Shown in pieces: positions 19,894-24,840 of a stretch of DNA of 34,987 bases; position 1 is the first letter of the stretch; each line of letters begins with the position of its first letter. The position numbers and the translations under genes are program-made. The stretch is from Candidatus Thorarchaeota archaeon (GTDB lineage: Archaea > Asgardarchaeota > Thorarchaeia > Thorarchaeales > Thorarchaeaceae), in NCBI GenBank assembly GCA_029210805.1, contig JARGGA010000004.1, forward strand, positions 1 to 34,987, written 5' to 3'. The notes beneath the pieces are model-generated. The model was given only the letters and a program-made list of their open reading frames with translations. It was not told the origin of the DNA and did no database searches.

Positions 19894-20460
19894 TTGACTG
19901 ATAATGTTCGTGTCTTTCTAAGTGTCGATATCGATGATGATGATTTACTATCTAGAATTCAATTACTCCAGTCCCAACTTGATTCCCAATCAGCTAGAAT
20001 GAAGTTGGTCGAACGCGAAAATATTCATTTTACTTGGCGCTTCATTGGAGATACTCCAATGAAGAAAGTGAATGCTATTTATTCAGAACTGAATCATCTC
20101 GAGTTAGTCCCATTTGATATTGTGATAGGTGGTATTGGTTCTTTTCCGAGTATTCGACGACCAAGAATCATTTGGGTTGGTGTAAAACACAACACTGAGT
20201 TGGTGGTAAATCTGAAAAATCAAACGGATTCTCTGCTAGCTAAACTTGGATACAAGATTGAGAAGAAAAAATTCATTCCTCATGCCACAATTGCTCGGGT
20301 GAGAGCAGTAAACAACCATGATGGCATTTTTGAGAATTTACAGAGTCTGTCCGACGAAACTGTGGGGAGGATGTCTGTCAATGGTATCAGAATGACAAAA
20401 AGTACGCTAACGTCATCGGGCCCTATCTATGAAACCCTATGGGAAGTGCCCAATCGATAG
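19894..20460 (+). CDS. thpR: RNA 2',3'-cyclic phosphodiesterase ThpR (2H family)
   Basis: Two HxT/S motifs: NIHFTWRFIGDT and FIPHATIARV; TTG start. Confidence 0.9.
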   Translation: MTDNVRVFLSVDIDDDDLLSRIQLLQSQLDSQSARMKLVERENIHFTWRFIGDTPMKKVNAIYSELNHLELVPFDIVIGGIGSFPSIRRPRIIWVGVKHNTELVVNLKNQTDSLLAKLGYKIEKKKFIPHATIARVRAVNNHDGIFENLQSLSDETVGRMSVNGIRMTKSTLTSSGPIYETLWEVPNR

Positions 20461-20474
20461 TTCTTGTAGAAATT

Positions 20475-20487
20475 TGGTGGGCCGGGG
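20475..20487. repeat. distal direct repeat (att-like), exact copy of the tRNA-Pro 3' end
   Basis: TGGTGGGCCGGGG, reverse complement CCCCGGCCCACCA, 15 nt after the thpR stop. Confidence 0.75.
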
Positions 20488-20509
20488 TTTATTGATGCAA
20501 AGTAATCTC

Positions 20510-21121
20510 TTAGAATTCGAATGAGCTTTCACGCAGTTCCTTATCTCTACTCCTCTGTAGCATTTCTTCTTCATCTTTCAAGTAATCCTCTCTTTTATCA
20601 TACTCTGGAATCAAATGATACCATTTTACTCTCATTCCATTCTCGTTTGTAAAGAAAAGTGATACTTTGTCAGGGATTAGTGGAATGTGAGTGATACTAA
20701 AGCCCATTTCTTCAAGTAATTCTATTGCTATAGTTTCTCGAATAGCACCGAGTCGTTTTGAATCTGTGTTCATGGTATAGAGTATTCTCAGGAGAGCTTT
20801 CTGTATTGGTTGAAGCTGAGATATTTGTGACTTTTCTCTTTCAGTTACAAGCTTCAGCTGCCATTCAGGATATCCTATAGGAATTCCTTCATCATAGGAT
20901 GGAAAGTCTATCACTTTCTGTACAGCCATTCTTTCAATTCCCAGATCAACTATTTGCTCCACAGTTGGAGAAATCTCTTTTGCAGCATCTGATGACTCAA
21001 TCCAAGTCTTCAATAATCTCTGAATCTTAGATAATCTAATTTGATGGTTTTCTTCTTTTTGTATGATTTGAACAAGCTCATTGACACAATCAGTTAGTAC
21101 CTCAGTCATTATTTTAGTCAC
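20510..21121 (-). CDS. orphan protein, third gene of the cassette
   Basis: 203-aa ORF starting 3 bp after the upstream ORF; no recognised motif. Confidence 0.6.
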   Translation of the reverse strand: MTKIMTEVLTDCVNELVQIIQKEENHQIRLSKIQRLLKTWIESSDAAKEISPTVEQIVDLGIERMAVQKVIDFPSYDEGIPIGYPEWQLKLVTEREKSQISQLQPIQKALLRILYTMNTDSKRLGAIRETIAIELLEEMGFSITHIPLIPDKVSLFFTNENGMRVKWYHLIPEYDKREDYLKDEEEMLQRSRDKELRESSFEF

Positions 21122-21124
21122 TTC

Positions 21125-22096
21125 CTATAGTTCAAAACCTTCACTTTTTAACTCGTTCATTATTCTTTCAACAGCATCCTTTCGTTTCTCTAAAAATTTC
21201 TCTACCTTGAATTTTTTGCGAACATCGTTTGGAGGGCAAAGAAGAGCCCATCTGATCGTGTCGTCTACCGATGCAGTTCTTGCGACCCAAGCCACTGTAA
21301 CCTTTCCAGTTTTTGGATAGTATCGAACTTCTCTAGGAACCTCATTGACTTTGATGTCTGCACGTTCTGCAATCTCTTTTTCATCGAGGATAAGGTTGCA
21401 TGGAAAATTGAATACGGCACTCATTATTTCTTCAGCAATGGCAGCTATTTCGGGGTTATCATTTTGTAGCAGTGTATCTAGATTTCTTATAGTAATTCTG
21501 TGGTTCCCTTTAGAATCTATTTTTGTATATTCATGGCTTTTTAGAAGATTCACACATCGATCCGATATTTTCGATTCAAATCCATAGGGGATTCCTTCTC
21601 TTCCACCACGAATAGCGATACAGCGAGTCCATTCAAAGGCACTGCTAAAGGACCCATCTTGTGGAATTAAATCTTCAAGGTATTTCAAGGCGGCTTCCAA
21701 TGAACTTCCCAGAACAGCGGGAGATAGTCCTGTATTATGGAAAGATTTGTTTCCAGGTTGTACTCCCCAATATTCAAGGACTTTCCCCATTGGACTAGGA
21801 ACGTTTTGCTGGATGTAACCATCTCGTTGTTGCTCATTCAATTTCATTTCACCAAAATTCCTGAGCGTTTCCTTGAATATTCCGAGTCTATCTAAATCAC
21901 CCTCATAATACTCAGCACGTCCATCTTCTCTAAGGTGAAAATCGCTGTTTGCAGTAGCGACCAGTCTTGCTCGAAGTGATTCGAGTTCCTTTCCTTCGAC
22001 GAATCTTGGATTTCTGATTCCACCTTGTCTATTAATTCCAGTTATGCGTTCTATTTTTTCGTTCAAATAATCAGTTTTTACCCCGTTAACATCCAT
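21125..22096 (-). CDS. putative degenerate LAGLIDADG-like (homing-endonuclease-fold) protein
   Basis: Two helix-acid motifs ~95 aa apart: LRARLVATANSDF (aa ~41-53) and LKYLEDLIPQDGSF (aa ~137-150), with intervening YYEGDLDRLGIFKETLRNFGEMKLN...VPSPMGKVLEYWGVQPGNKSFHNTGLSP typical of LAGLIDADG repeats. Confidence 0.5.
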   Translation of the reverse strand: MDVNGVKTDYLNEKIERITGINRQGGIRNPRFVEGKELESLRARLVATANSDFHLREDGRAEYYEGDLDRLGIFKETLRNFGEMKLNEQQRDGYIQQNVPSPMGKVLEYWGVQPGNKSFHNTGLSPAVLGSSLEAALKYLEDLIPQDGSFSSAFEWTRCIAIRGGREGIPYGFESKISDRCVNLLKSHEYTKIDSKGNHRITIRNLDTLLQNDNPEIAAIAEEIMSAVFNFPCNLILDEKEIAERADIKVNEVPREVRYYPKTGKVTVAWVARTASVDDTIRWALLCPPNDVRKKFKVEKFLEKRKDAVERIMNELKSEGFEL

Positions 22097-22150
22097 CTGA
22101 AATCTTAGTGATTCACCTTGAATTCGATTTTCGTTGATGTGCCTTGATTT

Positions 22151-22999
22151 CTATATCTTCGAGCTATCCGTTTCACTCAATAGTTGGTCCATGATTTTGT
22201 TATAATGTTCAATCGACTCGGTTTTCTGTGGACTAAGGCCTAGCTTGTCCAGAGTGCTATCAGTCATTCGGGCAAGTTCTCTGGAATCCTTTGGATAGAA
22301 GTACTGATTTGCCCATGCATTGAGCATATCATTCTTGGACTGGTCCTGAATCCACATGTACATCCGACCTTCCACATTAGCGACTTTGACGATATTCTCT
22401 GTATGTTCTAGCCCAAGTCTGCGTTTCAATTCGGTTTCTACGAGTTCCTTGTTTTGGCGAAGTGATTCTTCTAATGTTTTCAATTCATCAGATGAATATA
22501 CTGTAGAAAGATTGGAATGGAAAATTCGCTCATCTTCTCTATCTTTTGGATACATCTTTTCGAATCCCTTGACCAATCGTTCATGGTCAAGTTGCGCCTC
22601 TGTGATATTCCCAAGACCTTCCTTCACGTCCTTTGGTTCTATCTTCTTTGCTTCAGAAAAGTCTGGTCTAAGTGGCTCAAGAGTAGTCTCTTTCATTGAT
22701 TCAGCATAGTTTCTGGCTGCTTCCGACAAGTCTTCATTTTTCTGAATCTTTGCCCATTCCTGAATGATACTATCTTCCTCAAGAGACCTAAGCACTCTAA
22801 CTAATCCTTGTTCATAACTACTACGCCAGTAGCCAACCAGACTCTGTGACACATTGTGTTCTTCTGCAAGTTCTATTTGTGTCTTGGACCAATCATTGTG
22901 GATTGCGACATACTTTTCGCATCGTTCATAGTTTTTTGAAACATATTGAATATCTAATGCATCTTCATGCTTCTTGATTAGCTCGTCAACCTCTTTCAT
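22151..22999 (-). CDS. HTH-containing protein, first gene of the cassette
   Basis: NDWSKTQIELAEEHNVSQSLVGYWRSSYEQG resembles a helix-turn-helix; the rest is unrecognised. Confidence 0.55.
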   Translation of the reverse strand: MKEVDELIKKHEDALDIQYVSKNYERCEKYVAIHNDWSKTQIELAEEHNVSQSLVGYWRSSYEQGLVRVLRSLEEDSIIQEWAKIQKNEDLSEAARNYAESMKETTLEPLRPDFSEAKKIEPKDVKEGLGNITEAQLDHERLVKGFEKMYPKDREDERIFHSNLSTVYSSDELKTLEESLRQNKELVETELKRRLGLEHTENIVKVANVEGRMYMWIQDQSKNDMLNAWANQYFYPKDSRELARMTDSTLDKLGLSPQKTESIEHYNKIMDQLLSETDSSKI

Positions 23000-23469
23000 C
23001 GATTCAATAGAAACTTCTGGAGGGGTAGGCAGCTGCCACCCAAAATCGCGACAAATCTAGACATTGAATAGATAGTCCTTTGAAGGAATGCCATGTTCTC
23101 AGTATCACAAGCTGCACTCAGATTATTATCATTTAGTCGCAACTAAGTACACTTACAAGCTCGCTACCGGGAATTCACTCTAACCTCAAACTCCTTTGGC
23201 CTCATCTACATGGAGTGATTTGCTAACGAATAGTGTTTAGGGAGATGGAAAGTTGGATAAAAAGCATTATTTTCTTTCAAATAGGATGATGAGTGCTTCA
23301 TATCAGATTATGAGTTCATTTGTGTCCTTTTTTCTGATTAATGGTATATAATCACTTTTTACGTGAAAAATGTCGAAAATTGGTGCAATGGCTTGAGCAA
23401 TACAGTAGATTTCTCACGAATTGCATGGAATCTGCATCAGGCTAATAAAACAAATTAACAATAGTTAGG

Positions 23470-23482
23470 TGGTGGGCCGGGG
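23470..23482. repeat. proximal direct repeat (att-like), within the tRNA-Pro 3' exon
   Basis: TGGTGGGCCGGGG, identical to 20475-20487. Confidence 0.75.
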
Positions 23483-23607
23483 GAGATCCTCACCCAACAG
23501 GGAAATCCTGAAGGGATTTGAACTCCCGATCTCATGCATGTTGGGATACTGACGAAAAGTTCGGTACCACCCCAAGCATGAATCATACCAATCTAGACTA
23601 CCGACCC
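23470..23607 (-). tRNA. tRNA-Pro(GGG) with two introns (37/38: 23539-23569, 31 nt; 59/60: 23487-23516, 30 nt), CCA encoded
   Basis: Acceptor GGGTCGG/CCGGCCC, anticodon stem CATGC/GCATG with loop TTGGGGT after splicing, T stem GGGAG/CTCCC with loop TTCAAAT after splicing, A73-CCA; both introns fold into a bulge-helix-bulge; spliced length 77 nt. Confidence 0.87.
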
Positions 23608-23724: not shown

Positions 23725-23757
23725 TAAGTTGGTATTTATGTGGGGGGACAACATTGT

Positions 23758-24840
23758 ATGGGTGACCCAGATGGTGTAATTGCAATGACTACAGATATCG
23801 TATTTCACGAATTATTCACAAAACATGTGCTACAACTAGGTCATCCGGAAAGCCCAGAACGTTTGATTACTGCTTTGAAATATATCAGGGAAGCAGGTCT
23901 CTTCGATACAGACAGTGTGAATCTTGTTACAGCTGAGAGTACAAACTTGAATGCTATCCACCCTTTACATCATCAGTCATACCTGGAACAAATACGTGAG
24001 AAGTCAGAGAAAGGAGGAGGGTTTTTCACACTAGATACGTCTGTCAATGAGTACACCTACGAAGCCGCGCTTCTGGCAGCGGGAGGCGGAATTATGGCGG
24101 TAGACCGAGTGGTTGAAGGCCTTAGCACAAACGCCTATGTTCTGTGTCGTCCCCCAGGACACCATGCAGAAACTGCTCGTGCTTTTGGTTTTTGTTTTAT
24201 CAATAACATTGCAGTAGCTGCACATCATCTTACTTCTGAATGTGGAGTCGAAAGAGTGCTGATTCTAGATTATGATGCTCATCATGGTAATGGTACTCAA
24301 AATGCATTCTATGATAGAGATGATGTTCTATATATCGGGATGCATCAAGATGGACGGACTCTTTTCCCAGGTTCGGGATTTCCAGATGAGATTGGTAGTG
24401 GTAAAGGCAGAGGTTACAACGTCAATCTGGCAATGTATCCAGGTGCTGGAGATGTATCGTACCATTTAGCCTTTGAAGAGGTAATCGAACCCCTTGCAGA
24501 TTCATTTGTACCAGACATTGTTCTGGTTTCAGCTGGGTTTGATGCCCATTTTGAAGATCCATTAACTAACTTGGGTTTGACTACAGCTGGTCTTGCTATG
24601 ATTAACTCAAAAGTGAAAAATATTGCCGATAAGCACTCTAAAGGGAAGATTGTCACATTTTTGGAGGGAGGGTACAATCTCACGGCAATGGGACGGGGTT
24701 CGCTTAACCTTGTTGAGGTAATGTCTGGTAGCAATGTCACACAATTTAACGATAGCCACAAGGAAAGCAACACTTGCACTGAATATAATGAAAAACTCAT
24801 TGAGGTTCTCAAAGGAAGCATTCTAGATATGCACCTGTGA
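23758..24840 (+). CDS. histone deacetylase / acetoin utilisation family amidohydrolase
   Basis: RPPGHHAETARAFGFCFINNIAVAAHHL, LDYDAHHGNGTQNAFY, VSAGFDAHFEDPL, EGGYNL; start at 23758 or 23785 more likely than GTG 23740. Confidence 0.92.
   Translation: MGDPDGVIAMTTDIVFHELFTKHVLQLGHPESPERLITALKYIREAGLFDTDSVNLVTAESTNLNAIHPLHHQSYLEQIREKSEKGGGFFTLDTSVNEYTYEAALLAAGGGIMAVDRVVEGLSTNAYVLCRPPGHHAETARAFGFCFINNIAVAAHHLTSECGVERVLILDYDAHHGNGTQNAFYDRDDVLYIGMHQDGRTLFPGSGFPDEIGSGKGRGYNVNLAMYPGAGDVSYHLAFEEVIEPLADSFVPDIVLVSAGFDAHFEDPLTNLGLTTAGLAMINSKVKNIADKHSKGKIVTFLEGGYNLTAMGRGSLNLVEVMSGSNVTQFNDSHKESNTCTEYNEKLIEVLKGSILDMHL

Follow-up and report, generated by a model that had tools for sequence, protein, structure and literature searches.

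A decayed insertion beside tRNA-Pro in a Thorarchaeota genome, probably one of a family of homing elements that replace gene 3' ends

In the genome of a Candidatus Thorarchaeota archaeon a block of about 3 kb lies between the tRNA-Pro gene and thpR. This block is most likely (probability about 0.8) a decayed copy of a homing element that replaces the 3' end of the gene it visits. It is part of the window, by which the whole analysed stretch of 34,987 nucleotides (contig JARGGA010000004.1) is meant; its features are listed in Table 1, and related copies are cited by locus number (L). The observations behind the homing reading are an insertion, empty sites, the LAGLIDADG fold of the encoded protein with its conserved acidic residues, pairs of resident and remnant gene ends, and protein lineages that are specific for their target. 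From these we infer DNA cleavage, copying from a repair template and the donor origin of one of the two 3' ends.

Table 1. Features of the inserted block and its surroundings in the window
Feature	Position	Strand	Basis
thpR (2'-5' RNA ligase family), ancestral neighbour of tRNA-Pro	19894..20460	+	LigT_PEase, E 1.4e-23
Distal remnant of tRNA-Pro 3' end (CCCCGGCCCACCA)	20475..20487	-	beside thpR; exact 13-mer and empty site in relatives
Inserted element between both tRNA 3'-end copies	20488..23469	-	about 2,982 bp
S gene, 203 aa	20510..21121	-	S family follows endonuclease gene in a subset of copies
C-terminal half of large gene: LAGLIDADG-like endonuclease domain (D52, D147 of ORF) and C-terminal HTH-like part	21125..22096	-	AlphaFold2, Foldseek, Pfam, conserved acids
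Single in-frame TAG splitting large gene	22151..22153	-	frame comparison
N-terminal half of large gene	22151..22999	-	weak HTH match
tRNA-Pro, anticodon UGG, target gene	~23470..23607	-	sequence, tRNA-Pro of relatives, weak RF00005 match
Histone-deacetylase-family (HDAC) gene, ancestral neighbour on other side	23740..24840	+	E 7.6e-92

The initial annotation had noted an exact 13-nt copy of the tRNA-Pro 3' end beyond the cassette, and this was borne out by sequence search. The sequence CCCCGGCCCACCA was present at 20475-20487 and at 23470-23482, both on the minus strand. These were the only two copies in the window when up to two mismatches were allowed (0.22 expected from shuffling) and the only two exact copies in the genome (4,026,885 bases in 699 contigs); the 13-mer is thus not a frequent sequence there. 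The tRNA-Pro gene itself proved to be real, as judged from its sequence and from its place, which is that of tRNA-Pro in relatives. Because it carries an intron in the anticodon loop and an inserted stretch in the T-arm, it was not detected by ARAGORN and obtained only a sub-threshold Rfam score (RF00005). Its 3' end at 23470-23482 would be the restored one, whereas the copy beside thpR is better read as the displaced old end of the gene than as an att site. The core genes that were said to flank the cassette were confirmed by the matches given in Table 1.

In all of the 28 relatives that could be scored, among them L072 from the same genus, whose acceptor sequence differs, the 3' end of tRNA-Pro was found 3-183 nt from the thpR stop codon, and the HDAC-family gene lay on the other side of the tRNA gene. 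A spacing of about 3 kb occurred in the window's genome only. As the two genes are adjacent in all 28 relatives, the block is an insertion, in agreement with the earlier proposal, and synteny of the cassette genes at this place is not conserved. A second empty site was provided by another copy in the same genome (L116), which separates OTCase from a PfkB-family gene. These two genes are adjacent in 29 of 29 relatives. Beside PfkB, L116 contains a 106-nt remnant of the OTCase 3' end that is 77% identical to the resident end.

Three genes had been assigned to the cassette, but there are really two, a large gene and the 203-aa S gene. The two larger ORFs share one frame with a single TAG between them and align to one continuous protein of 640-1474 aa in relatives, so they are the halves of one gene. 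Its homology extends past the N-terminal ORF to about 23050, which suggests that the 5' end is likely truncated. In the first active-site motif the window copy has F53, whereas all other rows with a residue at this position have G or C. Given the TAG, the likely loss of the 5' end and F53, the window copy is probably inactive. A reading of the TAG as pyrrolysine was rejected, since TAG is a common terminator of the family's genes and since each of the three stop codons is found within copies.

Searches of the single cassette proteins with Pfam, PHROGs, NCBIfam and PADLOC gave no usable annotation, and the fold assignment came only from the family alignment and from structure. Pfam LAGLIDADG_3 was matched weakly by 2 of 17 family members (best E 8.5e-4), and a sequence profile search of the PDB gave no nuclease matches. 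The AlphaFold2 model of the C-terminal half of the window protein with five relatives had a pLDDT of 80. Its best Foldseek match was I-Tsp061I (E 8e-5), and the first 17 matches were LAGLIDADG homing endonucleases, intein endonucleases or WhiA, the best ones including the TliVMA intein, PI-SceI, WhiA and I-SceI. Aspartate was present at the position of D52 in 65 of 65 domains and aspartate or glutamate at position 147 in 68 of 68; the window copy retains both catalytic acids. The only DNA-binding-type Pfam matches of the family were of the HTH type, and the N-terminal part of the proteins bears such a domain. This points to the large gene product being an endonuclease with a LAGLIDADG fold, a nuclease by prediction. 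The AlphaFold2 model of the S protein was poor. As had been remarked initially, no tyrosine or serine recombinase was recognisable in the cassette, nor in the relatives examined, larger copies included, with Pfam, PHROGs and NCBIfam. The mobilisation in trans or by an unknown recombinase that had been proposed in consequence is not needed, given the endonuclease that the large gene is predicted to encode.

The C-terminal half had seven matches in the genome to which the window belongs and as many as ten in others; the genomes are draft MAGs. Within the same taxonomic family, 31 of 47 genomes contained the endonuclease family at E <= 1e-8 (32 of 47 at E <= 1e-3). It also occurred in a second Asgard family, with weak matches in two further families, and amounted to 41 of the 232 genomes of the phylum. 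A GTDB scan returned six loci only, five of them titled Candidatus Thorarchaeota, the usual title of public records with relatives; a scan of IMG/VR returned no relatives of the family. In about 13 copies (among them L087, L088, L089, L090, L091, L098, L103, L138, L143, L147 and L153) the endonuclease gene is immediately preceded by a gene for a HerA/VirB4-like ATPase (850-1070 aa), and the two often touch or overlap. The ATPase gene may mark the full-size form of the element. Arrays of S genes lacking an endonuclease gene were seen at L113 (8044-10053) and L114 (2-1718), where one open frame of 669 aa matches S more than once. An NYN-domain gene (L090, 2393-3787) lies within a stretch of about 8 kb that runs from tRNA-Asn to its distal remnant.

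Related ORFs had been suggested as a thing to look for at other tRNA 3' ends, and they were found at several tRNA genes. Many copies abut the 3' end of a tRNA gene with their stop codon, and a smaller set, which includes the window copy, shares the strand of the target. By reading of the sequences the tRNA types were assigned as Ala (L085, L089, L091, L093), Asn (L084, L087, L090, L102, L112, L117, L120), initiator Met (L092, L104, L105), Val, Glu, Phe, Met, Thr and others. A tRNA scanner placed a tRNA beside 10 of 76 copies and beside 10 of 338 control ORFs, a count that understates the association because tRNAs with T-arm introns are missed. Other copies are located at the 3' ends of protein genes, namely OTCase, SAHH, uS19, Lsm, NuoD/hydrogenase-like, NiFe hydrogenase, MTHFR, a cysteine-desulfurase-like gene, HDAC-like and ScpB. 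Two copies of the initiator-Met clade (L141, L147) are placed differently: they precede the tRNA gene on its own strand, upstream of the 5' end, instead of adjoining the 3' end. Inserted T-arm stretches were seen in the window (23470-23607), at L084, L090, L117, L120 and L137, and in the thpR-linked tRNA-Pro of several relatives. They vary between relatives, are common in tRNAs targeted by the elements and are possibly resistance alleles.

In many copies the endonuclease gene has the intact target on one side and a fragment of the target's 3' end on the other, as the 13-mer shows for the window. When the flanks were compared, a significant same-strand duplicate was detected in 16 of 55 copies and in 6 of 110 unrelated control ORFs (Fisher p 6e-5), and in the clear cases the duplicated piece was the 3' end of the target. 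About half of the copies had no detectable remnant, some for lack of contig. The repeats were between 10 and more than 200 nt long. Short remnants of tRNA genes that end at CCA were identified at L102, L105 (two), L118 and in the window; among protein genes the SAHH remnant measured 112 nt, and remnants reached 74 codons (MTHFR, 74 aa) at about 69% amino acid identity. Remnants had often diverged from the resident end and sometimes stood in tandem. L121 contains four tandem T-arm/acceptor remnants, three of which start within a few nucleotides of one point at the 5' base of the T-stem. Four NuoD-like remnants were found at L152 and two remnants each at L159, L105 and L142; Lsm remnants occurred twofold.

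Resident and remnant of OTCase at L116 show 20 differences in synonymous and 4 in nonsynonymous codons. Since a dead fragment would lose its amino acids as it decays, the two ends appear to have diverged as ends of working genes, both under selection as coding sequence until one displaced the other. The remnant was no closer to relatives than the resident end. In the tRNA-Val remnant at L118 the T-stem pairs at 4 of 5 positions and differs from that of the resident. The remnant in the window, being short (13 nt) and identical to the resident end, fits homing and att duplication equally well when taken alone. The mechanism for this copy therefore rests on its relatives, the window itself giving only the empty site, the 13-mer and the broken gene. 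Two types of OTCase C-terminus (ELTSDIMDD.. and EELTSEVMDGP..) were seen within one genus (G001, G002; loci L168-L199) and may reflect 3'-end exchange. At L103 (9409-10509) and L122 (5631 onward) a piece from the 3' end of a methylmalonyl-CoA mutase gene (profile positions 172-512) comes after the element. No intact chimeric mutase gene was found in these genomes apart from paralogues of 57-59%, and the two copies do not fit 3'-end replacement cleanly.

Targets were assigned from the flanks before a tree was made of 68 nuclease domains, 46 rows of which had a named target (20 kinds). The target changed 20 times on this tree (the minimum being 19), as opposed to at least 31 times in 200 shuffles, whereas the host genome changed 37 times (shuffles: minimum 34, mean 38). 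The SAHH, Lsm, HDAC, NuoD and Phe copies each formed clades, mostly spanning different genomes. Target specificity tracks the endonuclease lineage and the host does not. Such a tree is what site-specific homing enzymes that move between hosts would predict, and it lends indirect support to the predicted site-specific double-strand cleavage.

According to the homing reading, the LAGLIDADG endonuclease, guided by its HTH domains, would cut a conserved gene near its 3' end, in tRNA genes around the T-arm and acceptor. An element-bearing copy of the locus would then serve as template for repair, so that the 5' part of the target would acquire the version of the 3' end that the element brings with it, and the gene would stay functional. 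The endonuclease gene would come after the restored end, and beyond the element the old 3' end of the recipient would persist as a remnant. With repeated visits, tandem remnants would accumulate. The S protein would be an accessory part, as would the HerA/VirB4-like ATPase where a copy has one.

Part of the initial proposal, an integrative element with a direct repeat of the tRNA 3' end, was retained, namely the insertion at the 3' end of tRNA-Pro; the repeat is read rather as a displaced gene end. If a tyrosine or other recombinase acting in trans had joined an attP containing the tRNA 3' end to attB, the 13-bp repeats would be attL and attR. The location, the exact short repeat and the HerA/VirB4-like ATPase of some relatives would suit such an element, whose att sites also restore the gene end. 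It is nevertheless improbable, as a recombinase is absent from the cassette and from the larger copies examined, target specificity follows the LAGLIDADG lineage, and there are many protein-gene targets with long remnants. Protein-gene targets and diverged pairs of ends are better accommodated by 3'-end replacement through homing than by an att site.

Little probability is likewise left for a transposon-like element, in which the LAGLIDADG-fold protein would itself be the recombinase or transposase and insert site-specifically with target duplication. Dispersal in multiple copies over several targets would be in keeping with this, as would an HTH of the kind present in transposases. Against it stand the conservation of both nuclease acids and repeats of such unequal length with synonymous divergence, where target duplications would have a fixed length; terminal inverted repeats were not noticed in an unsystematic look, and we know of no LAGLIDADG recombinase. 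That the cassette consists of resident accessory genes beside tRNA-Pro and that the repeat is coincidental has next to no probability. A 13-mer is short, but both copies in 4 Mb lie here, the same arrangement recurs at many other loci, and the adjacency of tRNA-Pro and thpR in all scoreable relatives already refutes it.

Archaeal integrase-type elements occupy tRNA 3' ends, produce short direct repeats and restore the gene end. The family described here shares these three properties, but it has a LAGLIDADG protein instead of an integrase and includes protein-coding targets. With a 1.8-kb insertion at tRNA-Thr of Caldiarchaeum, in which a 5' tRNA fragment is accompanied by a predicted DNA recombinase (PMC3293823), it has in common an archaeal host, a small element, a tRNA gene fragment and tRNA introns, whereas the fragment here is 3' and the protein LAGLIDADG. 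The Aloposons of Heimdallarchaeum are Asgard mobile elements at tRNA sites too; they have giant genes of 3,000-6,000 aa and a ParA-like ATPase (PMC8813620). Neither was found here and identity with Aloposons was rejected.

The yeast WHO elements (Torulaspora, Lachancea) place a LAGLIDADG endonuclease gene beside a conserved gene, and their model consists of a cut, repair from an element-bearing template, a chimeric target, an old 3' end pushed outward, and repetition that gives clusters (PMC7282813). The archaeal copies resemble them in the putatively replaced target 3' end and the old end kept on the far side, in tandem clusters, decayed copies, either gene orientation and allelic divergence of resident and remnant. 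WHO proteins are intein-derived, contain a zinc finger and mainly target FBA1, and their cleavage was demonstrated (PMC7282813). In contrast, the present elements have an archaeal host, HTH domains, tRNA and many protein-gene targets, in many cases an S gene and in some a HerA-like ATPase gene, and their cleavage is only predicted. In the fungal mitochondrial mORFs (Allomyces atp6; Glomus atp6, atp9, cox2, nad3) an endonuclease ORF carries a foreign C-terminal piece, and the native end is replaced and left downstream with synonymous divergence, as is proposed here. Unlike the archaeal elements, mORFs are mitochondrial, are confined to protein genes, with no tRNA targets described, and are often in frame with the host gene (PMC3630166). 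By analogy, the archaeal elements are best read as working like WHO elements and mORFs, a likeness of mode that does not imply membership of the HO/WHO protein family.

A partial search of the literature gave no earlier account of such elements in archaea. On the best reading, a spread by 3'-end replacement that was so far described in fungi would operate here in archaea, often at tRNA genes. More tentatively, and with considerable doubt, Asgard archaea may contain a large radiation of recombinase-free homing elements that replace the 3' ends of tRNA and core genes, in the full-size form of which a HerA/VirB4-like DNA-pumping ATPase would be coupled to the endonuclease, and T-arm introns, frequent among targeted tRNA genes, would make the alleles that bear them resistant at the cut site. 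An archaeal family built in this way would place the mode of spreading in prokaryotes and widen its target range to include tRNA genes and about a dozen core genes. It would also account for the tRNA fragments and the chimeric 3' ends of Asgard genomes. Endonucleases sorted by their natural target would be useful for testing how specificity changes, and with this family it could be examined whether unusual introns shield a tRNA gene from insertion.
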